Positions 26,242-43,409 of a DNA stretch of 64,000 nt are shown piece by piece (position 1 is the first letter of the stretch; every line of letters starts with the position of its first letter). This stretch comes from a bacterium (GTDB lineage: Bacteria > Myxococcota_A > UBA9160 > UBA4427): contig JANSYR010000010.1 in the NCBI GenBank assembly GCA_024742285.1, forward strand, positions 1 to 64,000, read 5' to 3'. The notes below the pieces were generated by a model. That model worked only from the letters and a program-made list of their open reading frames with translations, was not told the DNA's origin and searched no databases. The translations under genes were made by a program, and so were the position numbers.

Positions 26242-26256
26242 AGCCTTGCTTCAGCC
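26236..26256. terminator. Two-way hairpin holding both convergent stop codons
   Basis: GGCTGAAGC (26236-26244) and GCTTCAGCC (26248-26256) form a perfect 9-bp stem with a three-base loop. The TGA of the plus-strand SnoaL gene is in the left arm and the TGA of the minus-strand SDR gene is in the right arm. No clear T-run follows on either strand. Confidence 0.6.
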
Positions 26257-27180
26257 ATCGCCCTTCTGGGCCTCGCGTTCCTCCGCGCCGGCGGACATCA
26301 GGTTGACCTCGACCAGATAGTCCGGCGGGGTCAGGTTCTTCATCGACGCGTAGCGCTCGTCGAGCTTCTGCATCTGATGCGGGAGCGCGTAGGTCGCCCA
26401 GAAGAGATCTTCCTCGATCCCACGCAGGCACAGATCCGCCACGTCCGAGAGCGGGGCTTCCACGACCTCCTGTCCGGCGGCGGCGGCGCGCTGCCTGTAG
26501 TCCTCGAGGGCGTCGCGCGGATTGTTGTCGTCCGGATCGTTGCGCAGGTAGCGGTCGGGGCGATTCGCGCCGGCGCGCCAGATCCCCGTGGCGAGCACGC
26601 CCGGGGTCGGACTCGAGGGGAGCAGGAGCGACGCGCTCACTTTCGAGCCCATCTCGCGGAGCTGGCCCCAGAGGCATTCGGTCAGCGTCGTGACCGCCGC
26701 CTTGGTCACGGGATAGATCCCGCTGCTCGCGATCGGGTAGTAGGCGCCGTTGCCCGACGAGGTGTTCACGACGTGTCCCTCGTCCTGCTCGACGAGCAGC
26801 GGCACGAATGCGTTCATGCCGTTGATCACGCCCATCACGTTCACGTCGAGGCTCCACTTCCAGTCGTTCAGGTGGTGCTCCCAGACGCTGCCCTTCGCGC
26901 CGGCGCCGACCGCCGCGTTGTTCACGATCACGTGGCAAGCGCCGAATCGGTCGAGGGTCCGGTCGCGGAGCGCGCAGAGGGCATCGAAGTCCGTCACGTC
27001 GACGCTCTCGCCGACGACGTCCGGGGATCCGAGGTCGCGCGTCGCCTCATCGAGGGCCGCCTGGTGGAGGTCGGCGAGGACGACCTTCATGCCCTTCGCG
27101 AGCATCGCGCGCCCGATCTCGATCCCGATTCCGCCGCTTCCGCCGGTCACTACGGCGACCTTGTCGCGCAGGTCCTTCAT
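26251..27180 (-). CDS. Short-chain dehydrogenase/reductase (SDR)
   Basis: A 309-residue classical SDR with TGGSGGIG (12-19), NNAA (87-90), S141/S142, Y156 and K160 (YPVTK). LADLHQ after beta-2 carries Asp, which favours NAD(H). The region after the catalytic helix is longer than usual, with an inserted PDDNNPRDALEDY loop that could form a substrate lid. GAGGAG stands nine bases before the ATG. It is followed on the same strand by the opposite-end neighbour 27276 (upstream), a sterol-desaturase-like gene, at 95 bases. The substrate is unknown. Confidence 0.9.
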   Translation of the reverse strand: MKDLRDKVAVVTGGSGGIGIEIGRAMLAKGMKVVLADLHQAALDEATRDLGSPDVVGESVDVTDFDALCALRDRTLDRFGACHVIVNNAAVGAGAKGSVWEHHLNDWKWSLDVNVMGVINGMNAFVPLLVEQDEGHVVNTSSGNGAYYPIASSGIYPVTKAAVTTLTECLWGQLREMGSKVSASLLLPSSPTPGVLATGIWRAGANRPDRYLRNDPDDNNPRDALEDYRQRAAAAGQEVVEAPLSDVADLCLRGIEEDLFWATYALPHQMQKLDERYASMKNLTPPDYLVEVNLMSAGAEEREAQKGDG

Positions 27181-27275
27181 CGTTCTTCGCTCCTCGTTGC
27201 CGACCGGGTCGGATCGTGGGTGGAGGAACGATGTTGGTATGGAAATCGGGGCGCTGCCACGCGCGGGATCCCGGC

Positions 27276-28004
27276 TCAGGCCGCTTCGCGATTCACCGGC
27301 TCCTCGAAGGTCCCGAAGAGCTTGTCGTAGAACATCGTGAGCGTCGCGTAGTTGCCGTGGCTCATGTCGACGTGGTGCGCGTGGTGGACGCCCGTGATGT
27401 AGTCGACCGTCCGGAAGAACCAGCTGTCCTTCGGCAGCCGCGTGTACGTGTGATTGATCGTGTTCAGCTGGGTGAAGATCAGCGTCGCGATCGCCGCGGA
27501 GACCGCGTGAAGCGCGCCGCCGCTGATCAGAGCCACGATCGGGATCGAGAAGAGGAAGAGGCAGAGGCCGATGAAGGTCTCGAGGGGATGGACGTAGAGG
27601 GAGTCCGCCCAGGTGGGCTTGCGTGCCTGGTGGTGGAGGGCGTGGACCTTCCGGAGCAGGTCGCCGTGGAAGAGCGAGCGATGGGTCCAGTAGTACATGA
27701 AGTCGAAGATCGCGAGGACGGCCACGATCTCGAGGAGGTGCTGCCAGAGCGGTCGCGAATCGAAGCTCACGCTGAAGGGCAGGACCGCCACGAAGAAGCC
27801 GAGATTCGTGTACTTGCCGATGTTCTCGCTCGCCTTCATGCCGTCCCGGAAGCTGTCGCGGGCCATCTTGATCTTGTCCGCGGCGCGGTTCTCGAGGCGC
27901 ATCTCCTCCATGACGGGGATGCTGAAGACGAGCTTCTTGCCGACGATCGTGAGGCCGACGAGGACGGCGATGTAGGTGAGGGCGGCGAGCCAGTCGTAGG
28001 TCAT
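27276..28004 (-). CDS. Fatty acid hydroxylase/sterol desaturase-family protein
   Basis: A 242-residue integral membrane protein with the histidine clusters of the di-iron family: YYWTHRSLFH, KVHALHHQA and VHHAHHVDMSH, plus NHTYTRLP. Several hydrophobic helices surround them. Family members use O2 to hydroxylate or desaturate sterols, fatty acids or carotenoids. The start at ATG 28004 is taken because upstream sequence is low-complexity. A MarR-type regulator gene lies 88 bases upstream on the same strand, and an SDR gene downstream. A second family member occurs at 60649. Confidence 0.88.
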   Translation of the reverse strand: MTYDWLAALTYIAVLVGLTIVGKKLVFSIPVMEEMRLENRAADKIKMARDSFRDGMKASENIGKYTNLGFFVAVLPFSVSFDSRPLWQHLLEIVAVLAIFDFMYYWTHRSLFHGDLLRKVHALHHQARKPTWADSLYVHPLETFIGLCLFLFSIPIVALISGGALHAVSAAIATLIFTQLNTINHTYTRLPKDSWFFRTVDYITGVHHAHHVDMSHGNYATLTMFYDKLFGTFEEPVNREAA

Positions 28005-28092
28005 CGGGGTTCTCCTGGGCTCGAAGCGAGCCTTGGGGTGGGGCTGGGCGTAGACGAGTGTCCGGGCCTTTCTCTCGTGGAGCGGTCGGTTC

Positions 28093-29208
28093 TCAGCCGT
28101 TGTGCAGCGCCGCTTCCGCGGCGGTGGGGTTCGTGGGTTCGGCGAGCAGCGCCGCGAGGCGCCTGGCCGCGTCGTGTCCGAGGTCTCGGCGGAGGCGCTC
28201 CGCGAGTCGTTCGAGAGGCTCTCCGTCCTGGGGCGTGCCGTCGAAGACCTCGCGCTCGAGGCCGAGGGATTCGTAGAGCGCGCGAGCCCCTCGCTGGAGC
28301 GCGCCGAAGCGCCTTGCGCCGATCGCCGCCGCATAGCGCTCGTCCAGCGCGTCGAGGGCCGAGACCGAATCGCGGATCAGGGTCTCGCCGGCTTCGGAGA
28401 GGAGGAAGACGACGCCCCGGCGATCGCGCGGGTCGGGCTCGCGGCGCAGGTAGCCCATGCCCTCGAGCTCGCGGGCGGTCGCGCTGATCGCCTGGCGCGA
28501 GATCCCTTGCACGCGGGCGAGGGCGGCGACCCGTGCGCCTTCAGGGCCGATCAGCGGCAGCACCTGGGCGTGGGACATCTTCAGGCCGGCGTGTCCGCGC
28601 GCGGCGGTTTCGTCCATCAGCGTGCGCTGGGCGTCGACCGAGAGGAGAGGGAGGGTTCCGATCGAAGCGTTCCGTCCCGCGATCGGCAGCACGTCCGGCG
28701 TGTCCGAGAGGGCGCGGAGGAGCCGCGCGGCGGCCTCTTCGAAGCGCGCCATGGCGTCTTCCCCGATCCGCTCGGCGTACTCCACCGAGAGGAGCCGGAG
28801 CTGGCGGCTGGCGTCGGAGACCAGGCGGCGGCCCGGATCGGTCAGGTCGATCACCCGGTTGCGGCCGTCCTTCGGGTCGGCGCGGCGCTCGGTGTAGCCA
28901 GCCTTCTCGCAGGCGCTGACCAGTTGGCTGACGGCCTGGGGCGAGATCGAGAGCGCCGCCGCCAGCGCGCCGAGCGGTCGCGCGCGCTGGGCCACGAGGG
29001 CGAGCACGGGGCCGAAGCTCGGGCGGAGATTCGCGTAGCCATCGCTCGAGGAGAGGCGGCCGAGCATGCGGTTCTCGAAGTCCCGCGCGACGCCCATCAC
29101 GTGGCGAGCCGTGTTCGAGCGGTAGCGGGACCAGACCTCGTCGCTCATCGGCGGCGGGACCGGGGCGCTCGCGGCACCGATCGGGGCGCGGGGGGTGGGC
29201 TCGACCAT
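28093..29208 (-). CDS. Single-chain double MarR-type regulator
   Basis: A 371-residue protein with two winged-helix MarR domains. The first spans about 63-130, with recognition-helix region SISPQAVSQLVSACEKAGY and wing RADPKDGRNRV. The second spans about 212-280, with QGISRQAISATARELEGMGY and wing EPDPRDRRGVV. MarR proteins are usually about 150 residues and work as homodimers; here one chain carries two DNA-binding units. Each is flanked by helical dimerisation-like segments. ATG 29208 gives a proline-rich leader; ATG 29148 is an alternative. It is divergent from the SDR at 29352, with candidate operators in between, so autoregulation and control of that SDR are plausible. Confidence 0.85.
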   Translation of the reverse strand: MVEPTPRAPIGAASAPVPPPMSDEVWSRYRSNTARHVMGVARDFENRMLGRLSSSDGYANLRPSFGPVLALVAQRARPLGALAAALSISPQAVSQLVSACEKAGYTERRADPKDGRNRVIDLTDPGRRLVSDASRQLRLLSVEYAERIGEDAMARFEEAAARLLRALSDTPDVLPIAGRNASIGTLPLLSVDAQRTLMDETAARGHAGLKMSHAQVLPLIGPEGARVAALARVQGISRQAISATARELEGMGYLRREPDPRDRRGVVFLLSEAGETLIRDSVSALDALDERYAAAIGARRFGALQRGARALYESLGLEREVFDGTPQDGEPLERLAERLRRDLGHDAARRLAALLAEPTNPTAAEAALHNG

Positions 29209-29237
29209 CGCGGAACCCTAGAGGAGAAGGGGTAATT

Positions 29238-29282
29238 AATCAAGAATGATTGACAAGTTTGGCAGATTCCCTTGAGGGAATC
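29238..29282. promoter_or_regulatory. Divergent control region with two palindromes
   Basis: GATTCCCT-TG-AGGGAATC (29265-29282) is a perfect 18-bp inverted repeat. Upstream, AATCA-AGAA-TGATT (29238-29251) is a second, A+T-rich one, and TTGACA at 29250-29255 is a perfect -35 hexamer toward the SDR gene, although no good -10 follows at 17 bases. The A+T-rich patch is unusual for this genome. The adjacent double MarR protein is the likely binder. Confidence 0.55.
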
Positions 29283-29351
29283 GGGCTGGCTCCCCCGCCT
29301 GCGCCGCGCGACCGTTCCGACCGGCGGCGAGCCGCGAACGAGGAGAGGGCG

Positions 29352-30227
29352 ATGCAGGATTTCGAGGGGCGGACGGCGGTGATCACCGGGAGCGCGAGCG
29401 GTATGGGCCTCGCCTTCGCGGAGAGCTTCGGCCGGGTGGGCATGAACGTCGTCCTGGCGGACATCGAGGAGGATGCCCTCAAGGCCGCTGCGGCCCGGGT
29501 CGAATCCCTCGGCGCGACCGTCCTGCCGGTCGTGACCGACGTGGGCGACGCCGCTGCGATGGACCATCTCGGCGAGGCGACCCGCGAGGCCTTCGGCGCG
29601 GCCCACGTCGTCTGCCTGAACGCGGGCGTATCTGCGCCGACGGTGCCGATGGACGCGCTCTCGGCGAACGACTGGCAGTGGACCCTGGACGTCAACCTCT
29701 ACGGGGTGATCCATGGCATCCGCGTCTTCCTTCCGGGCCTCAAGGCCCAGGACGAGGGCTGCGTCGTCGTGACGGCTTCCGTCGCCGGCCTGACCTCCCA
29801 TCCCTGGCTCGCCCCCTACAACGCGTCGAAGCACGCGGTCGTCTCGATCGCCGAGACGCTCCACGCGGAGCTCGTCAACACGGGCTCCAACGTGACCGCC
29901 CACTGCCTCTGCCCGGGCATGGTCGCGACCAACATCGGGACCTCCGAGCGCAACCGGCCCAAGGCGCTCGCGGACGAGGTCGCGAACGTGTCGATGCCCG
30001 GCGCGATGGGCGAGCTCGGCGAAGACGTGGACGAGTTCCTGAAGCTCGCGCAGACGCCGGATGCGGTCGCCGAACGCGTGCTCGCCGCCGTCGTCGAAGG
30101 GCGCTTCTGGATCGAGACCGACGCCTACTACCGGGACACGATCAAGGCGCGGCACCACTCGATCGAGACGCGGACCGCGCCGCCGGTCGCGAAGAGCGTG
30201 ATGGATCCCTACTTCGCGAAGCGCTAG
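29352..30227 (+). CDS. Short-chain dehydrogenase/reductase (SDR)
   Basis: A 291-residue classical SDR with TGSASGMG (12-19), LNAG (89-92), S143, Y156 and K160 (YNASK). LADIEED after beta-2 favours NAD(H). The C-terminal region has FWIETDAYYRDTIKARHHSIE, an extra segment that resembles those of SDRs acting on bulky substrates. GGAG lies a few bases before the ATG. It is divergent from the double MarR gene and is the likely target of that regulator. It converges with the DUF1295 gene ten bases downstream. Confidence 0.9.
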   Translation: MQDFEGRTAVITGSASGMGLAFAESFGRVGMNVVLADIEEDALKAAAARVESLGATVLPVVTDVGDAAAMDHLGEATREAFGAAHVVCLNAGVSAPTVPMDALSANDWQWTLDVNLYGVIHGIRVFLPGLKAQDEGCVVVTASVAGLTSHPWLAPYNASKHAVVSIAETLHAELVNTGSNVTAHCLCPGMVATNIGTSERNRPKALADEVANVSMPGAMGELGEDVDEFLKLAQTPDAVAERVLAAVVEGRFWIETDAYYRDTIKARHHSIETRTAPPVAKSVMDPYFAKR

Positions 30228-30236
30228 CGGAGAGCG

Positions 30237-31109
30237 CTAGGCGCGCGGGGGTCGCGGGACGAGGAGCGACGTGCGCGCGCGGTAGGCGACGAACTCGGGA
30301 TCGTCCCCCCAGCGCTTCTCGGAGCGAGCGCGCAGGAGCGGGATCCCGCTGATCCGGGTGAGCAGGACGAAGACGAAGACCGGCGAGATCAGCGTCGCGA
30401 GCTGCGTGCCCTGGAGCGTGGGCAAGGCGACCACCGCGATCCCCGCCCAGAGCAGGATCTCGCCGAAGTAGTTGGGGTGCTGGGACCAGGACCACAGGCC
30501 GGTCGTGATGAAGCGCCCGTCGTTGGCGTCGTCGTGACGGAAGACGCGCTTCTGCTGGTCCGCGATCACTTCGATCGACCAGCCGATGACCCACATGCCG
30601 AGGCCGATCCCCGCCGGCAGACCGAGGGCGACGGGCTCCGCGGTCGTCATCGCCACCAGCCCGCAGGCGAGGGTGAGGAAGACCCAGAGCCCCTGCAGCG
30701 TCCAGGCCATCAGGAAACGAGCGAAGTCGGGCTTGATCGCGTCGAACCGCCCGTCGCCACCGTCCTCGGAGATCCGTCGGACGAGGAAGGTGCCGAGGCG
30801 CAGCGCCCAGAGCATCACGCAGCCGCCGATCAGAAGCGCCCGCGGATCCCGGGGTCCCAGGGCGAGGGCGACGCCCGTGAGCGTCAGGTAGGTCAGGCTC
30901 CCCGTCGCATCGTAGTAGCGCTCGGTCTGGGCCGAGAAGGCGTGGGCGAACACGATCCAGTTGAGGACGAAGGCACCGAGCCCACAGAGGGCGAAGAGCG
31001 GGAGGCCGAGGGCGACCGGGGGGCCGGCGCTGCCCGCCCAGGCGATGGCGGCGCCGATCGCCAGAATCAGGGGCAGGGCGAGCCAGGCCTGGCGGGTCGC
31101 GGGTTTCAT
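30237..31109 (-). CDS. DUF1295/steroid 5-alpha-reductase-like membrane protein
   Basis: A 290-residue protein with about seven hydrophobic helices and a conserved C-terminal block: RRISEDGGDGRFD, IADQQKRVFR, then GLWSWSQHPNYFGEILLW and ARSEKRWGDDPEFVAYR. This matches the DUF1295 family, related to steroid 5-alpha reductases and isoprenylcysteine methyltransferases. Those relatives use NADPH or SAM at the membrane; the reaction here is not known. It is divergent from the DyP-P450 fusion across 199 bases that contain a 6-bp-arm palindrome. Confidence 0.85.
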   Translation of the reverse strand: MKPATRQAWLALPLILAIGAAIAWAGSAGPPVALGLPLFALCGLGAFVLNWIVFAHAFSAQTERYYDATGSLTYLTLTGVALALGPRDPRALLIGGCVMLWALRLGTFLVRRISEDGGDGRFDAIKPDFARFLMAWTLQGLWVFLTLACGLVAMTTAEPVALGLPAGIGLGMWVIGWSIEVIADQQKRVFRHDDANDGRFITTGLWSWSQHPNYFGEILLWAGIAVVALPTLQGTQLATLISPVFVFVLLTRISGIPLLRARSEKRWGDDPEFVAYRARTSLLVPRPPRA

Positions 31110-31308: not shown

Positions 31309-34300
31309 ATGCGAATGATTCCCAGCAAGAACATGGGCTCGGTCAGCGAGCTGACCGTCCTGGTGGACGTCCGGCCGGAGCTCTGCGACAGCCGGGCGAC
31401 GATGACCCATGGGACGCGGCTGCGGATCCTGCTGCGGACCCTCTACGGAATCCGCCGCGCGGCGGTCGAGGAGAGCGTCGACGGCCGCCTTCCCGGTCCG
31501 CTCGAGTCGCTCGAGTTCCTCCACTTCGTCCGATTCGCGCTGCTCGACAACGACACGAAGTTCCTGCTCGGCGTGACCTTCGACGGCGCCTGGGAGCCCT
31601 ACATCCGTGCGATCGCCGAACGCGCCGGGCCGCTGCTCGACGTGATCTTCTGCCACACGGTCGACTACAACGCGCACGCGTCCGACCGGGGCTACCTGCG
31701 CTTCTCCGAGTGGGTGCGCGGGCATCAGGTCGAGGCCGACTTCTTCTTCGCGGACTCGCCCGGAACGACGGCCCGGGACGTGCGTCTGCTCGAGGCGTTC
31801 CACCAGCGGATGATGGGGCAGGCGGAAACGCCGCCGCCGACCGCGGGACCCGAGGACGTGCGTCGCGGGATCAAGGCACTCCACCAGCTTCACGGCCTCG
31901 ACGCCTACTTCCCGGCCGAGCACGAGAAGAACTTCCTGCGTCGGACGGCGCAGATGATCCTTTCGCCCGTGATCGACGGGATCGAGGCGCGCTTCGACGA
32001 GTACGAGGCGTTCGGGACGGGCCAGCACCGGGTGCACGCGCAGCAGATGGACTGGATCCGCAAGCAGGACGAGACGCCCGGAGCACCTTCTTCTTCAGGC
32101 GCACCGATCGATCCGGTCGCCGTTCCGTGGCCGCCGATTCCGAAGCGCGACGAGCGGAGGACGGCGCCGGCGCCGCCCGGCGATGTGCAGGGCAACATCC
32201 TGACCGGGTACGAAGGGATGACCCACGGCGCCACGCTGCTCCTGCAGATCACCGATCTCCCGCTCGCACAGCGATTCCTCCGCGAGCTCGAGCTCACGCG
32301 GGAGGGCGAGGCCACGCCAGACGTGACGTGCAATCTCGGCTTCACGTATCGCGGACTCGAACGACTCGGCCTGCCCGAGGAGGATCTCGAAGACCTGCCC
32401 TTCGAATTCCGGCAGGGCATGGACGCGCGCGCCGGGTGGCTCGGCGATCTCGGGGTGAACCACCCGAGCCGTTGGACGCTTCCCCGGCGCAACTGGCCCG
32501 TCGACCTCGCCCCGCAGGCGCTCCGGATCCGGATGTCGAGCGTCGACTTCGTGATCCAGCTCCAGACGCGAGCGGGCTGCTCGGAAGGCGACGATCATCT
32601 CTTCACCGAGGCCCACCCGCTCCACGATCTGATCGCGGCGCGCTTCGGCGACGAGGCGCGGCACGGCGTCCGGATCCTCGCCGTCGAACCCACCCGGCAC
32701 GTGGGCGTCGCCGAGACCGAGGGCAGGCCGTGGGGCATGGAACATTTCGGCTACCTCGACGGCGTGAGCCAGCCGGCGGTCGAGTACCTCGCCGACGAGC
32801 GGACGCCGTCCCGGGATCGCATCGCCCTCGGCGAGCTGCTTCTCGGCTACGGCGACGACAGGGACGGCGTCCAGGCGGAGTGCAAGCCGGCGTTCCTGCA
32901 CAACGGCAGCTTCCAGGCGATCCGCAAGCTCTCCCAGGACGTGGGCCGCTTCTGCGAGATCATCGACGGCCACGCGCAGACGTTCCCCAAGCTCGCCGAG
33001 GCGATGATGGGCCGACCGCTGGCGCGCTCGATGTCGGGGCGTCCACTCGGGGACGAGGTCGATCCGCTCGTCGACGCCGAGCCGTCGAAGGTCGGTCGCC
33101 TGCTCAGTTACGGATTCGGTAAGGGGCCGCTCAGTCGCGCGGACGAGGTCGCGCCGGATTCCCACGTCCGCCGCTCGAACCCGCGGAACGGTCCCTGGCA
33201 CCGGAAGGACCGCGTGCGAAACCGCCAGCGGCCTGCGCTCCCGCGGATCGCGCGGCGCGGCATGCCCTACGGCTCCGAGTTCTCGGCGGAGACCGAAGGC
33301 GAAGCGCGCGGGATGCTCTTCAGCTGCTTCAATGCGAGCCTCGCCGATCAGTTCGAGGTCGTGCAGCGCTGGCTCGCCGGGGCGAATTCGTCCGGCGTCG
33401 TGGGGCTGCGGAGCGATCCCTTCATGGGGCTCCCGAAGCCGGGGCAGCACAAGCACTTCGCGCTCTTCGACGAGGACGGAAAGGTGGTCGACGGCACGCG
33501 GGTCGATCTGGGCGCGACGCCGCTCGTCCAGCTCGAGTGGGGTCTCTATCTCTTCACGCCGGCGCCCTCGGCGCTGGAGTCGCTGACGAGCGTCGATGCG
33601 AAGGCGCTCGCACTGGCGGATCGGGCCTCGGATGCGGATGTCCGGGAAGGGGAGGCGGTGATCGGCCGGATGGAAACGCTGCTCGAGGTCGAGCGCGCGC
33701 GGGATCCCGAGCGCGCGTACTTCGTGATGGCGCTCCGCTGGAAGGCACTGCTCGAGGATCTGTCGGCGCGGGAGACGAGCCGAAAGGTCTGGGCGGCGAT
33801 CCGGGCTCGCGGGGGGAGTCTCGAAACGCCCTACGGCGTGCTCGTCGGCTCGCGGGAACAGATCGGAAAGATCTTCGCGCATCCGCGCGACTACTCGGTG
33901 AGCGGGTACTGGGCTCGCATGCGCGACTCCCTCGGTGAGCACTACCTGGGGATGGACCCGAATCCGGAGGCGATGGCGGCCCACGCGAACGCGCCGGCGC
34001 GGGTTCAGCAGGACGGGTTCCTGGCGGTGGTGGACCGTGATCGTTACGCGCGAGAGGCGACCCTTGCGAACGACTGGATCTCGCGGATCGACGAGCGTGC
34101 CGCCTTCGACCACGCCTACGCCGAGGCGCGCGCGGTGCTCGAGCTGATGGTCTGGGCGGGCGCCCCCATGGCCGAGGACATCCCGCCGACGCCGGACACC
34201 ACGGTCGTCGACGTGGGGCGGCTCGTGGACGAGACGGTCGCGCGCATGTGTACGAAGTGGTTCGACCTGCCGGTCCCGCACCGACCCGAGCTCATGCAGT

Positions 34301-35427
34301 TCGGGACCCCGCCCCCGACCCGGGCTCACAACCCCGACAACTTCAAGTCCACGGCCCGCTACATCTTCTCGCCCAATCCGACCGACTTCGTTCGGAAGGA
34401 CGGGCAGGAGAAGGGAACCGAGCTCCTCGAGGGAGCGACGCGCTTCGTGTCCGAGATCCTCGCCGGCGACGCACCGCGGCCCGAGGGCACGCTCCTGGCG
34501 GCGCTCCTCGACGCGAAGGCGGAGCTGATCTCCGCCGGGATTCCCGCGCGGGGATTCGCGCGGTTCTGCGCCGGGATCCTGCTCGGGACGATTCACGGCT
34601 TCGTCGGCCCGGTCGGTGGCAGCCTGACTTCGCTGCTCAACGAGTGGATCAAGGACCGGGCGCTCTGGCGACGGCAGCTGACGTTGCTCCAGGCGTTCCC
34701 GGATCCGGAGATCGAGCTCACCTGGGACGACGTCGCGCCGCTCTTGCTCGCCGACGTCGAAGAAGGGATGCGCATCCAGCCCTTCCCCTACGTGTTGCAC
34801 CGCCTCCCGGTTCGCGACGTAGTGCTCCGGCAGAAGCCGCGCCCGCGTGGGGATCGCAAGGACGGTCCGGCGCCGGACGCCTACGACGTGCGGGTCGAGG
34901 CGGGCACGAAGATCGTGCTCGGCATGGTCTCGGCGGCCCACGACTCGACCCGGGTGACGGGCGAGGACGACATGCCGATCGGGGACCTGCTCTTCGGCGG
35001 GGCCTATCCCCGGCCGAACGGGGGCTACGAAGGGGAGAAGTCCGGGCTGCACGCCTGTCCGGGCAAGGCGATCGGCATGGGCACGATCCTCGGCGTCCTC
35101 GCCGCGCTCACCCAACAGGGGAACCTTCGACGGATCGCGCCGCTCAAGCTCGAACTCACGCCCTTCACGCCCTACAAGCAGCGGGTGGAGACGGGCAGCG
35201 ATCGGCTGGCGGTGATGGCGGCCGCGCTTCGCCAGGCCGGAGAGCACGCCCTGGAGGCGCGCACCGGTCGTCGGCGGGCGCGCGAGGAAGCCGCGAGGGG
35301 GGCCGATGAAGCGGCCCGGGCGGAGCGGCACGAGCGGGCCCGGGCGCGTGTGCGGGAACGTCGGGCGAGGTGGGACGCGTTCGTCGCCTCGGGCGGGGAA
35401 CCGGAACCGCGAGAAGACGACGCCTAG
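31309..35427 (+). CDS. DyP-type peroxidase fused to a cytochrome P450
   Basis: A 1372-residue cytoplasmic protein with two heme domains. Residues 15-260 are an alpha/beta region with ferredoxin-like character (FLHFVRFALLDND, LGVTFDGAWEPYI). The DyP domain begins near 289 (GDVQGNILTGYEG). It has the GxxDG motif GYLDG with distal D484, proximal H619 in SHVRRSNPR, R649/R650 in ARRGMPYG and FSCFNASLADQFE. A helical linker leads to a P450-like domain (about 820-1325) with E1152-G-M-R1155 and the heme Cys C1250 in GLHACPGKAIG. The I-helix region (FCAGILLGTIHGF) lacks the usual acid-Thr pair, as in hydroperoxide-using P450s. The tail is highly charged. There is no signal peptide. GAGGAG precedes the ATG. 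A peroxide-driven oxidation coupled between the two hemes is inferred. Confidence 0.9.
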   Translation: MRMIPSKNMGSVSELTVLVDVRPELCDSRATMTHGTRLRILLRTLYGIRRAAVEESVDGRLPGPLESLEFLHFVRFALLDNDTKFLLGVTFDGAWEPYIRAIAERAGPLLDVIFCHTVDYNAHASDRGYLRFSEWVRGHQVEADFFFADSPGTTARDVRLLEAFHQRMMGQAETPPPTAGPEDVRRGIKALHQLHGLDAYFPAEHEKNFLRRTAQMILSPVIDGIEARFDEYEAFGTGQHRVHAQQMDWIRKQDETPGAPSSSGAPIDPVAVPWPPIPKRDERRTAPAPPGDVQGNILTGYEGMTHGATLLLQITDLPLAQRFLRELELTREGEATPDVTCNLGFTYRGLERLGLPEEDLEDLPFEFRQGMDARAGWLGDLGVNHPSRWTLPRRNWPVDLAPQALRIRMSSVDFVIQLQTRAGCSEGDDHLFTEAHPLHDLIAARFGDEARHGVRILAVEPTRHVGVAETEGRPWGMEHFGYLDGVSQPAVEYLADERTPSRDRIALGELLLGYGDDRDGVQAECKPAFLHNGSFQAIRKLSQDVGRFCEIIDGHAQTFPKLAEAMMGRPLARSMSGRPLGDEVDPLVDAEPSKVGRLLSYGFGKGPLSRADEVAPDSHVRRSNPRNGPWHRKDRVRNRQRPALPRIARRGMPYGSEFSAETEGEARGMLFSCFNASLADQFEVVQRWLAGANSSGVVGLRSDPFMGLPKPGQHKHFALFDEDGKVVDGTRVDLGATPLVQLEWGLYLFTPAPSALESLTSVDAKALALADRASDADVREGEAVIGRMETLLEVERARDPERAYFVMALRWKALLEDLSARETSRKVWAAIRARGGSLETPYGVLVGSREQIGKIFAHPRDYSVSGYWARMRDSLGEHYLGMDPNPEAMAAHANAPARVQQDGFLAVVDRDRYAREATLANDWISRIDERAAFDHAYAEARAVLELMVWAGAPMAEDIPPTPDTTVVDVGRLVDETVARMCTKWFDLPVPHRPELMQFGTPPPTRAHNPDNFKSTARYIFSPNPTDFVRKDGQEKGTELLEGATRFVSEILAGDAPRPEGTLLAALLDAKAELISAGIPARGFARFCAGILLGTIHGFVGPVGGSLTSLLNEWIKDRALWRRQLTLLQAFPDPEIELTWDDVAPLLLADVEEGMRIQPFPYVLHRLPVRDVVLRQKPRPRGDRKDGPAPDAYDVRVEAGTKIVLGMVSAAHDSTRVTGEDDMPIGDLLFGGAYPRPNGGYEGEKSGLHACPGKAIGMGTILGVLAALTQQGNLRRIAPLKLELTPFTPYKQRVETGSDRLAVMAAALRQAGEHALEARTGRRRAREEAARGADEAARAERHERARARVRERRARWDAFVASGGEPEPREDDA

Positions 35428-40360: not shown

Positions 40361-41173
40361 CTAGGCCGAGACGCCGCGTTCGCCGAAGACCTTGCGGGCG
40401 AGGATCATCCCGTCGATCACGCGCGGAAAGCCGCCGTAGGGGATCAGCGAGATCATGATCTCTTCGATCTCGGCGGGGGTGAGACCGTGGTTCAGGCCGA
40501 CGCCGATGTGGATCTCGAGCTCGTGCTTCATGTTCAGCGCGGTCAGCGCCGAGATCACGACGAGGCTGCGGTCGCGGCGGGAGAGCTGGGGGCGGGACCA
40601 GACGTCGCCGAACGCGTAGTTCATCATGATGTCCCCGAGGTCGCCGTAGCCGTCGAGGATGGACTGCTCCGTCGCTTTCTTGTCGAGGTCCGGGTCGCCG
40701 ACGATCGTGGTCAGGACGTCGAGCGCGGCGGCGCGCCGCTCGCCATCGTCCATCAGAGAGGCGGGGGAGCGAGGCACCTCGCGGTGCTCGGTGTCCTCGC
40801 GTTCGGCGATCACCTCGTCGACGACGTTCTGTGCGGAGAGACAGCAGGGCATGCCGACGTAGGCGCTCAGCTGGACCAGGATCTCGTCGACCTCGTCGTA
40901 GCGGAGACCATGGTTCAAGCCGCCGTGGACGTGCTGTCGCAGCTCGGACTCGCGCGCCATCGCCGTCAGGGCCGAGATCACGATCGCGCTCCGGTCGCGG
41001 CGGGAGATCGCGTCGCGGATCCAGACCTCGCCTGCCGCGGTGCGCAGGGCGATGCTGCCGAGGGCGCCGCGGCTCTCGAAGTAGTCGGCGATCTCCTGCC
41101 CGGCTTCCGGCGAGCCGGCGATCGTCGAGAGGGCATCGAGCCCGCGTTCGGCTCGCGTCTTGGGGTCGCTCAT
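40361..41173 (-). CDS. Carboxymuconolactone decarboxylase-family protein, two domains
   Basis: A 270-residue protein made of two CMD repeats (about 5-125 and 145-268). Each has the RRDRS(A/L)xVISALTA helix and a later GLNHGL plus EIxxxLxxY segment (GLNHGLRYDEVDEIL and GLNHGLTPAEIEEIM). The first domain has MPCCLSAQNV, close to the CxxC region of AhpD-like peroxidatic members, but with adjacent cysteines; the second has GGFPRVIDG. CMD proteins act in protocatechuate breakdown or as peroxidases. ATG 41173 has GAGGAGG five bases upstream. It lies downstream of the Rieske oxygenase gene on the same strand. Confidence 0.86.
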   Translation of the reverse strand: MSDPKTRAERGLDALSTIAGSPEAGQEIADYFESRGALGSIALRTAAGEVWIRDAISRRDRSAIVISALTAMARESELRQHVHGGLNHGLRYDEVDEILVQLSAYVGMPCCLSAQNVVDEVIAEREDTEHREVPRSPASLMDDGERRAAALDVLTTIVGDPDLDKKATEQSILDGYGDLGDIMMNYAFGDVWSRPQLSRRDRSLVVISALTALNMKHELEIHIGVGLNHGLTPAEIEEIMISLIPYGGFPRVIDGMILARKVFGERGVSA

Positions 41174-41302
41174 GAGGCCTCCTCGGCCTCGCGCGTCCGG
41201 CATGATCGTCGGTCGAAGCGAGGCTTGCTCGTCACGCGAGTCACGCTATCGCGGCCGGTCGTCCCCGCAAGATCGCGTGAATGGCGTTCGCCCCGCGAGA
41301 CG

Positions 41303-42262
41303 CTATCCGGCGAGCTGGTCGGGCGAGTAGAACTGCTTCGCCCAGCGGCGGAACTCGGCGAGGAGCGTGTCCGCTTCGCAGAGGACGGGCTCGGCGCGGT
41401 GGATCTTGTTCGACCAGATCCGCATGTCGTCGAACACGCCCTTCGTGATGTTGTCCATCCACTCTTCGCCTGCGACGTCGACGGCGTTGTTCGTCGTCGT
41501 GAGCGCCCAGCGCGAAACCGTCGTGTCGCGATCGATCGGGCTCGTCGACGTGAACATGTAGAGGCCGACACCAGGGATGCCCGAGCTCTCGACGGTCCCG
41601 AGACCCAGGCCATAGGTCTCGCGAACGAGCTGCATGTCGAAGGTCCCGACCGGCGTCTCCTGCTGGCTGTAGCTGACCGCGTGGAGGACGCGGCCCTCGT
41701 CTTCGAAGGAGATCTCGGTGTCCGGGGTGCCGCTCATCTTGTGGACGTACTGGAAGTGGACCGGGTCGAGGTTGTTCTCGGCCATGTCCTGGAGATGGAC
41801 CGGGACCTCGATCTCGAAGGTTCGGACCGGGGACCAGTCCGGATCGTCGTAGTGGGGCGACTTCGGCACTTCCCAGTCGGGCGCCTTGCCTTCGGCGTGG
41901 TGCCAGACGTAGATCATGTGATTGAGCTCGCGGACCTCCCAGGCGCGAACGCGCGCGCGGGCCGGGATCCGGGCGCAGTAGGGGATCTTCGAGCACGCGC
42001 CGGATTCGCCGTCGAACTCCCAGGCGTGGAAGGGGCAGCGAACCGACTCGCCCTGGACGCGCCCGCCTTCCGCGAGATGGGCCCCGAGATGGGGGCAGTA
42101 GGCGTCGAGGACGCGTGCCTTCCCGGAGCGCGTGCGGAAGAGCACCATCTCGTTGTCGAAGTAGCGGATGCGCTGGACGTCGCCGACGCCCAGGTCCTTG
42201 CTCCAGGCGACGGCGTACCAGCCGTTGGGAAAGCCGGGCGCGCCTCGGTCCTTGTTCTCCAT
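41303..42262 (-). CDS. Rieske non-heme iron oxygenase, KshA-like
   Basis: A 319-residue oxygenase with the Rieske cluster motif C56-x-H58 and C76-x2-H79 (YCPHLGAHL, RCPFHAW) and the mononuclear iron motif with D166, H169 and H174 in ENNLDPVHFQYVH. The ENN-x-D-x2-HF-x3-H spacing resembles 3-ketosteroid 9-alpha-hydroxylase (KshA) and related oxygenases. It is shorter than typical KshA (about 380 residues). These enzymes need a separate reductase, none of which is in the window. The substrate may be a steroid or aromatic ring; the steroid choice is context only. It lies between the kinase-like and CMD genes on the minus strand. Confidence 0.9.
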   Translation of the reverse strand: MENKDRGAPGFPNGWYAVAWSKDLGVGDVQRIRYFDNEMVLFRTRSGKARVLDAYCPHLGAHLAEGGRVQGESVRCPFHAWEFDGESGACSKIPYCARIPARARVRAWEVRELNHMIYVWHHAEGKAPDWEVPKSPHYDDPDWSPVRTFEIEVPVHLQDMAENNLDPVHFQYVHKMSGTPDTEISFEDEGRVLHAVSYSQQETPVGTFDMQLVRETYGLGLGTVESSGIPGVGLYMFTSTSPIDRDTTVSRWALTTTNNAVDVAGEEWMDNITKGVFDDMRIWSNKIHRAEPVLCEADTLLAEFRRWAKQFYSPDQLAG

Positions 42263-42314
42263 CGGGAAATCCTCGTCGATGTCTCGGGTCCCGGAAACGT
42301 AGCGCCCGGACGAA

Positions 42315-43409
42315 TCAGAAACCGGCGAATTCGCGGAGCGCGGCGCGCGGGTCGAGGTCTTCGATCACGCACTGGGAGCGTTCGAGGAAGCTCCGGGAGA
42401 GCGGCTTGTTCTCTTCCGGCTCGTCCTCCGGGAACATCACCAGGGGGCACGAAGCCGGCGCCGCGTAGGCGGCGTGGACGCGGTGGAGCAGCCAGGCCTC
42501 GTCGAAGGACCCGGTCTCGGCGCCGAGGGCGGCGCGGGCGTCGAGATAGCGCTGGATCAGGTCCCGCTCGTGCGCCCGCCGGTTCTCGGGGGAGAGGGCC
42601 ATCGTGATGAAGTAGCCGACGTCGCGCATCGGCGTGCCGAGTTGGATCAATCCCCAGTCGAGGAAGCCCACGCGCCCGCCTGCCCGTCCGTTCGGATCGA
42701 GGAAGAGATTGCCGATGTGGCTGTCGCCCTGGAGGACGGTGATCGGGCCGCGCATCCAGATCTCGTCCAGGGTCGATCGGTGATCGATGTAGAGGTGCGC
42801 CATCTCGGCGTAAGGGTCGCGGAGCTTGTCCCGGTGGTGGTCGAGGCCGTACTGGAGCATCCAGATGCCCATGTCGCTGTCGCCGCCCATCGGCGCCACC
42901 CAGGGCACATTCGCGCGACGCGTCGCCTCGTCGGCGAAGCGCACGTGGAGCGCCGCATAGTCGTCCATCGCCGCCGCCGCCTGATCGACCTCGATCCCCG
43001 TCGTCACGTCGGCGAGGGTGCACGCCGTCGGTCCGAGATCCTCGAGCAGCAGCACGAAGCTGCCGTCGCGCTCGTCGAGGCGCGCGACGTAGGGGCGCGG
43101 GACGCGCATCGGGACGGTGTCCGCGAGGTGGCGGTAGAAGAGCGCCTCACGGCGTCCCATCCCGGTGTCGACGATCGTCTTCCGGCGCTCGGGATCGAGG
43201 GGGAGCATCTTGAGGAAGAACGTCTCGGGCAGGTCCTCGGCCTGGTCGTAGCGAACGCCGAGCTTCGCGTTCGAGTTCGTGCCGTGATGGATCTCGAGCA
43301 CGTCGACGGAACACACGCGCGTTCCGGGGAAGCGCTCCGAGAGCGCCTCGGAGAGCCACTCGGGGGTCACGTCCGCGGGGGTCTCGGGCAGGCGGGCTTG
43401 GGCAGACAT
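42315..43409 (-). CDS. APH-like phosphotransferase-family protein
   Basis: A 364-residue member of the aminoglycoside phosphotransferase/choline kinase-like fold. The catalytic loop is VLQGDSHIGNLF, with D229 and N234 (the usual H-G-D is Q-G-D here), and the metal-binding Asp is D251 in FLDWGLIQLG. The N-terminal lobe has K67 (FFLKML) as a possible ATP contact, with LLLEDLG as the hinge. Enzymes of this subgroup often lie beside oxygenases and CoA-ligase genes in steroid- or lipid-degrading bacteria, with unknown substrates. It lies 52 bases upstream of the Rieske gene on the same strand, so co-transcription is likely. Confidence 0.85.
   Translation of the reverse strand: MSAQARLPETPADVTPEWLSEALSERFPGTRVCSVDVLEIHHGTNSNAKLGVRYDQAEDLPETFFLKMLPLDPERRKTIVDTGMGRREALFYRHLADTVPMRVPRPYVARLDERDGSFVLLLEDLGPTACTLADVTTGIEVDQAAAAMDDYAALHVRFADEATRRANVPWVAPMGGDSDMGIWMLQYGLDHHRDKLRDPYAEMAHLYIDHRSTLDEIWMRGPITVLQGDSHIGNLFLDPNGRAGGRVGFLDWGLIQLGTPMRDVGYFITMALSPENRRAHERDLIQRYLDARAALGAETGSFDEAWLLHRVHAAYAAPASCPLVMFPEDEPEENKPLSRSFLERSQCVIEDLDPRAALREFAGF

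Follow-up and report, generated by a model that had tools for sequence, protein, structure and literature searches.

Is a single bacterial gene that runs through a dye-decolourising peroxidase (DyP) and a cytochrome P450 a genuine two-haem protein, and if so, what might such a protein do? The question is raised by a locus in a 64,000-nucleotide stretch of DNA, here called the window (positions 1 to 64,000 of contig JANSYR010000010.1, assembly GCA_024742285.1), from a bacterium of the Myxococcota_A lineage, in which an original prediction made from the sequence alone had placed an N-terminal domain, a DyP and a P450, in that order, in one protein of 1372 residues. This layout is correct: the open reading frame is intact, with zero internal stops and with a GC fraction at its three codon positions (0.73/0.48/0.89) typical of coding DNA, its domains were matched, and the gene is present as one copy in its own genome (Table 1). 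The window protein exemplifies, in fused form, a widespread cassette with its own partner domain, and both its three-part architecture and its cassette membership are firmly established.

A DyP-P450 fusion with its own N-terminal domain

An assembly or frame artefact is ruled out by independent orthologues. A search for the same domain order found it in two further Myxococcota genomes, G008 (Deltaproteobacteria bacterium OFTM107, locus L079; 1207 amino acids) and G345 (locus L028; 1263 amino acids), and since these and further loci carry such fusions the window gene is not an assembly error. A first scan of the genome contigs with a single-protein query had returned no relatives, and a scan of a viral collection none. 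The possibility that a stop interrupts the G008 orthologue was also rejected, this being the natural end of the protein. DyP-P450 fusions were catalogued at loci L005, L031-L033, L039 and L040, and at two loci of G292 and in three related 13-Mb myxobacterial genomes the DyP-P450 fusion is accompanied by a separate N-domain gene. The Sphingopyxis fusion lies on a complete plasmid, pDB-1 (L005, NZ_CP102385.1, 7965-10394), begins 63 nt past a Tn3-family transposase gene and is without the N-domain and the first DyP half, having probably been truncated at that gene. Other combinations of the cassette parts also occur in single proteins: N-N-DyP (L071), catalase-like-N-N (L069) and DyP-catalase-like (L116). 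The same parts have been fused repeatedly and therefore, we argue, act together. The DyP tree unites the fusions with the unfused L038 in a single supported group and recovers the proteins of the window, G008, G345 and Sphingopyxis as a set at 99.

Pfam and NCBIfam recognise only the DyP part of the window protein, and that weakly: Dyp_perox_C matches with 21.4 against a gathering score of 20, and TIGR01413 reaches 67.9 bits, under its cut-off of 100.5, while solved DyP structures match this half at up to 2e-22 in a sequence search. The haem residues named for it, D484 and H619, prove to be near-invariant. Among 88 aligned cassette DyPs, 86 rows of which have a residue at the scored sites, D484 is kept in 85/86 and H619 in 86/86, as are the putative distal arginines R649 (86/86) and R650 (85/86). 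The window protein has in common with DyP-type peroxidases (TIGR01413/PF20628; PDB 8re3, 6fsk, 7anv) the catalytic Asp of GxxDG, the proximal His, the distal Arg and the DyP core; unlike these peroxidases at large, its DyP belongs to a clade tied to the N-domain and, here, to a P450.

The extra N-terminal domain is real and conserved, with the limits given in Table 1. Neither it nor its homologues matched any Pfam or NCBIfam family, and a sequence search of the PDB gave no convincing relative. Residues H72, R75, D80, D92, Y98 and Q140 are invariant in an alignment of 36 sequences. The AlphaFold2 model of the domain (pLDDT 81, pTM 0.72) gave nothing in Foldseek at E <= 0.001 and, in VIA-align, a modest best Z of 8.5 with most values at 5-7, the list consisting mostly of ABM, NIPSNAP and mutarotase folds; the predicted fold is probably of the dimeric alpha-beta-barrel (ferredoxin-like) type. 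Homology of the N-domain with the N-terminal half of DyP is unsupported (hhalign, 0.1%).

The P450 half is divergent. Pfam p450 does not match the P450 domains of the window, G008 and Sphingopyxis proteins up to E 10, but that profile is a means of detection and sets no structural requirement. An AlphaFold2 model built on 17 aligned sequences (pTM 0.75, mean pLDDT 72) matches P450 crystal structures in Foldseek (E 6e-9, prob 1.00) and P450BioI in VIA-align (Z 24.9 across 350 residues), and profile comparison by hhalign pairs this half with the standalone cassette P450s at 99.4% probability; as modelled, it clearly has the P450 fold. The proposed haem cysteine, C1250, sits within that predicted fold in the motif HACPG, part of a loop like FGxGxHxCxG, and the ligand cysteine is invariant across the 17 sequences. 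In the three-part and Sphingopyxis fusions the Cys loop is enlarged by an insert, differing in length among them, that separates FGG (1229-1231 in the window protein) from HAC (1248-1250); in the model of the window domain this insert has low confidence. The ExxR motif (1152-1155) has fared less well as an argument. In the window protein E1152 and R1155 do align with the ordinary P450 ExxR (EALR) of 13/13 standalone cassette P450s, but the motif carries less weight than was claimed because the sister fusions have lost it, having ATMQ (G008), RTMQ (G345) and QAMC (Sphingopyxis) instead.

The predicted lack of the acid-Thr pair was borne out, and it extends to the whole fusion clade. The window I-helix reads GFVGPVGG, without the acid-alcohol pair of O2-activating P450 monooxygenases; the pair is also missing in the aligned DyP-P450 fusions, in L038 and in L036, and is partly eroded in other cassette P450s. 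Its absence and the Cys-loop insertion are indirect signs that the window P450 may act as a hydroperoxide isomerase or lyase without O2 or a reductase, as do P450s of the CYP74 clan. The missing pair, the low-confidence model of the Cys-loop insert, the missing Pfam match and the loss of ExxR in the sister fusions could also be taken to mean that the P450 half of the fusions is non-catalytic or structural and that the working enzyme consists of the N-domain and DyP. We consider this unlikely: every sister fusion keeps HAC and C1250, the modelled P450 fold is preserved and the window copy retains its ExxR.

The cassette across bacteria and its lipid links

A census in which the N-domain alone served as query, with one genome per species and with DyP left out of the query, returned 80 loci, many of them in metagenome-assembled genomes, in Myxococcota, Bacteroidota, Cyanobacteria, Chloroflexi, Pseudomonadota, Acidobacteriota, Planctomycetota, Armatimonadota and Thaumarchaeota records. 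DyP is found in 79/80 of these loci, within 700 nt in 78/80, which rules out a generic DyP without context. A third haem partner lies within 2.5 kb at many of them, either a P450 (18/80) or a catalase-like protein (25/80), and both together at none (0/80); on the DyP tree the two have been exchanged at least five times. Methylorubrum (L008), outside the 80-locus count, has a P450 and a catalase-like protein plus a ferredoxin and its reductase, and no homologue of this ferredoxin/reductase pair was found at the other P450-type cassette loci. In the catalase-like proteins an RxxxY motif resembling the proximal motif of catalases is retained, but the site that aligns with the catalytic His is variable. 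Most loci encode two tandem N-domains in one protein, and a simple hydropathy scan detects a transmembrane-like stretch in 59/70 of the double-N proteins. In the phylum of the window, 24/379 sampled genomes have the N-domain. Culturable carriers include Algoriphagus sediminis and Archangium violaceum, with N-DyP-P450 genes, and Paraburkholderia sacchari, with an N-DyP-catalase set.

Several further features of the loci were recorded. GMC oxidoreductases recur in 10 of them. Near the N-domain gene, 20 loci, including L115 (5399-5863), encode a protein some 150 residues long that belongs to no Pfam family; its gene lies mostly just upstream and mostly in catalase-type cassettes. N-domain and DyP genes are present on metagenome-assembled contigs labelled Thaumarchaeota/Nitrososphaera (L065, 584-1754; L076, 666-1145).

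Some of the loci are linked to lipids by their neighbours. An alpha-dioxygenase homologue (PF03098) lies within about 2.2 kb in six loci, all of the catalase type (L093, L096, L097, L102, L106 and L108), and structures of fatty acid alpha-oxidases match that of L097 (4394-7384) at 4.5e-57. A patatin-like phospholipase adjoins the cassette in Sphingomonas, where the locus also carries export genes, and in the three 13-Mb myxobacterial genomes. These neighbours bear on a second alternative, namely that the DyP, catalase-like and P450 proteins serve lipid-peroxide detoxification or repair and remove hydroperoxides without making defined products. The alternation of catalase-like and P450 partners would suit such a role, as would the membrane-like segments of the double-N proteins; however, the alpha-dioxygenase, the patatin, the Sphingomonas export genes and the cyclase- or kinase-ATPase partners described below resemble a pathway more than scavenging, and the catalase-like proteins vary just where catalases have their catalytic His, so that we hold a detoxifying role to be improbable.

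Neighbouring genes in the window

Directly downstream of the fusion gene, after a gap of 10 nt, stands a gene for a class III cyclase-AAA_16-TPR protein, and a signalling ATPase gene lies beside every DyP-P450 fusion that we examined. The window protein is 45% identical to its G008 counterpart and 34% to that of Sphingopyxis; homologues stand next to the fusion gene, or to the P450 gene, in G008, G345, Sphingopyxis, L038, G292 (there on the same strand) and G188, and in the 13-Mb genomes a kinase replaces the cyclase in the ATPase neighbour. In the class III cyclase motif NxxxR, the neighbours in the window and G008 have Gly in place of the transition-state Arg (GDAPNTAAGL and GDAVNTAAGL), which those of G345 and Sphingopyxis retain, so cyclase activity in the window and G008 neighbours is uncertain. 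The window neighbour resembles the TIGR03903 TOMM kinase/cyclase fusions, far below the cut-off of that model. An anti-phage system was considered and rejected: the window protein (P0001) and the cassette proteins tested gave no PADLOC match, and the only models that the neighbour matched were those of Pycsar cyclases, within the cyclase part of the protein.

Table 1. Coordinates of the fusion gene, its domains and surrounding features in the window
Feature	Position	Strand	Basis or remark
Fusion gene, N-domain - DyP - P450, 1372 aa	31309..35427	+	Single open reading frame; three-part orthologues G008/L079 and G345/L028
N-domain, about residues 1-194	31309..31890	+	36-sequence alignment, AlphaFold2, VIA-align
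DyP peroxidase domain, about residues 284-763; D484 of GxxDG, H619 proximal, R649/R650 distal	32158..33597	+	
Divergent P450 domain, about residues 770-1286; C1250, E1152..R1155, I-helix GFVGPVGG, Cys-loop insertion	33616..35166	+	
C-terminal tail rich in Arg/Glu/Ala, about residues 1287-1372	35167..35427	+	G008 orthologue without tail
Class III cyclase - AAA_16 - TPR protein, 1037 aa	35438..38551	-	Pfam; tail-to-tail with fusion gene
Second, ordinary P450 gene	13956-15266	+	Pfam p450 1.1e-28; about 16 kb from fusion
Steroid/lipid-like genes: DUF1295/steroid-reductase-like, FA_hydroxylase, SDRs, tandem MarR, KshA-type Rieske, EcKL kinase	26251-31109 and 40361-43409		

The wider surroundings invite a third alternative, in which the fusion is a tailoring enzyme for a sterol, a terpenoid or another secondary metabolite, since the window also holds DUF1295/steroid-reductase-like, KshA-like Rieske, fatty-acid-hydroxylase-family and short-chain dehydrogenase/reductase (SDR) genes and another P450. 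This too seems a poor prospect, as the steroid- and lipid-like families do not recur near the cassettes across loci, with the exception of SDRs in 10 loci, and no biosynthetic core gene was found among the window genes scanned.

A candidate route for oxidised lipids

The account best supported by these data, and one that we judge evenly poised between right and wrong, is that the DyP and a hydroperoxide-type P450 act in sequence on a lipid. More broadly, the window protein is a one-polypeptide version of a widespread cassette of N-domain, DyP and often a third haem protein, P450 or catalase-like, and there is about an even chance that this cassette processes a lipid (hydro)peroxide. From the observed architecture, conservation, cassette co-occurrence, partner exchange and synteny we infer a substrate, a direction of the chemistry, channelling and a role for the cyclase-ATPase, as follows. 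A hydrophobic substrate, probably fatty-acyl, would be bound or presented by the N-domain; the haem of the DyP would oxidise this substrate using peroxide, or would make a (hydro)peroxide; the P450, with no acid-Thr pair and no evident reductase, would use or rearrange the (hydro)peroxide by isomerase, lyase or peroxygenase chemistry; the fusion would keep the reactive intermediate between the haems; and the linked cyclase-AAA-TPR protein may sense or regulate the pathway. The original suggestion, that the DyP acts alongside a P450 which uses hydroperoxides, gains indirect support, from the exchange with catalase-like proteins, from the alpha-dioxygenase and patatin loci and from the missing reductase pair at the other P450-type loci.

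Other observations weigh on the opposite side: (i) only a minority of loci show the links to alpha-dioxygenase and patatin, and no three-part fusion has either gene beside it; (ii) neither an animal-type haem dioxygenase (PF03098) nor a lipoxygenase was detected in the genome of the window, so the hydroperoxide would have to come from the DyP itself or from something else, and we know of no DyP that makes lipid hydroperoxides; (iii) at 31/80 loci, some on truncated contigs, P450, catalase-like protein and cyclase-ATPase are all missing nearby, which means that the core may be only the N-domain and DyP; and (iv) several standalone cassette P450s keep the acid-Thr pair, so that some of them could depend on O2 and on redox partners encoded elsewhere.

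Fungi (PMC13049297) and oomycetes (PMC5919972) have dihaem peroxidase/dioxygenase-P450 fusions, and comparison with these and other known systems shows both similarities and differences: (i) In the fungal dioxygenase-P450 (DOX-CYP) fusions, such as the linoleate diol synthases, one chain carries a haem oxidase domain and, after it, a P450, as in the window protein, and the P450 isomerises the hydroperoxide and needs no reductase (PMC13049297). However, their first domain is a cyclooxygenase-like haem dioxygenase, whereas that of the window is a DyP, of a different superfamily, preceded by the N-domain; no An_peroxidase (PF03098) domain was matched in the window protein, and the best reading is that the fusions are analogous and not homologous. 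(ii) The CYP5619 fusions of oomycetes (PMC5919972) combine a P450 with a peroxidase-type domain and have an altered haem-binding loop, as in the window, but they are eukaryotic and carry a peroxidase/dioxygenase domain in place of the DyP and N-domain. (iii) Nostoc has a dioxygenase (10S-DOX) and a separate catalase-related hydroperoxide lyase (PMC13049297), and cyanobacteria have catalase-lipoxygenase and catalase-haem dioxygenase fusions (PMC11719350); in these a catalase-like enzyme that acts on the hydroperoxide accompanies an oxygenase, and we suggest a similar arrangement for the catalase-type cassettes, although the core of the latter is N-domain plus DyP and the window fusion uses a P450. 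Among the papers searched, we found none on a DyP-P450 fusion or cassette, and no bacterial counterpart built on a DyP.

A bolder reading, which we regard as less likely than not, is that of an undescribed, phylum-spanning bacterial oxylipin-like pathway, in which DyP and its partner domain replace the cyclooxygenase-type dioxygenase and feed a P450 or a catalase-like enzyme, coupled in myxobacteria to a soluble-adenylyl-cyclase-like ATPase, the window protein being its fully fused form. To our knowledge, the natural substrates of DyP peroxidases are largely unknown; if the proposed role is true, it would give these enzymes a definite partner in the cell and a class of substrates that can be tested, and a widespread domain family outside Pfam and NCBIfam would be defined. 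The pairing of a haem oxidase with a hydroperoxide enzyme would then have been invented independently once more, with P450 and catalase-like proteins interchangeable in the second position, and the presence of the same parts as adjacent separate genes in many bacteria points to an uncharacterised bacterial processing of oxidised lipids.

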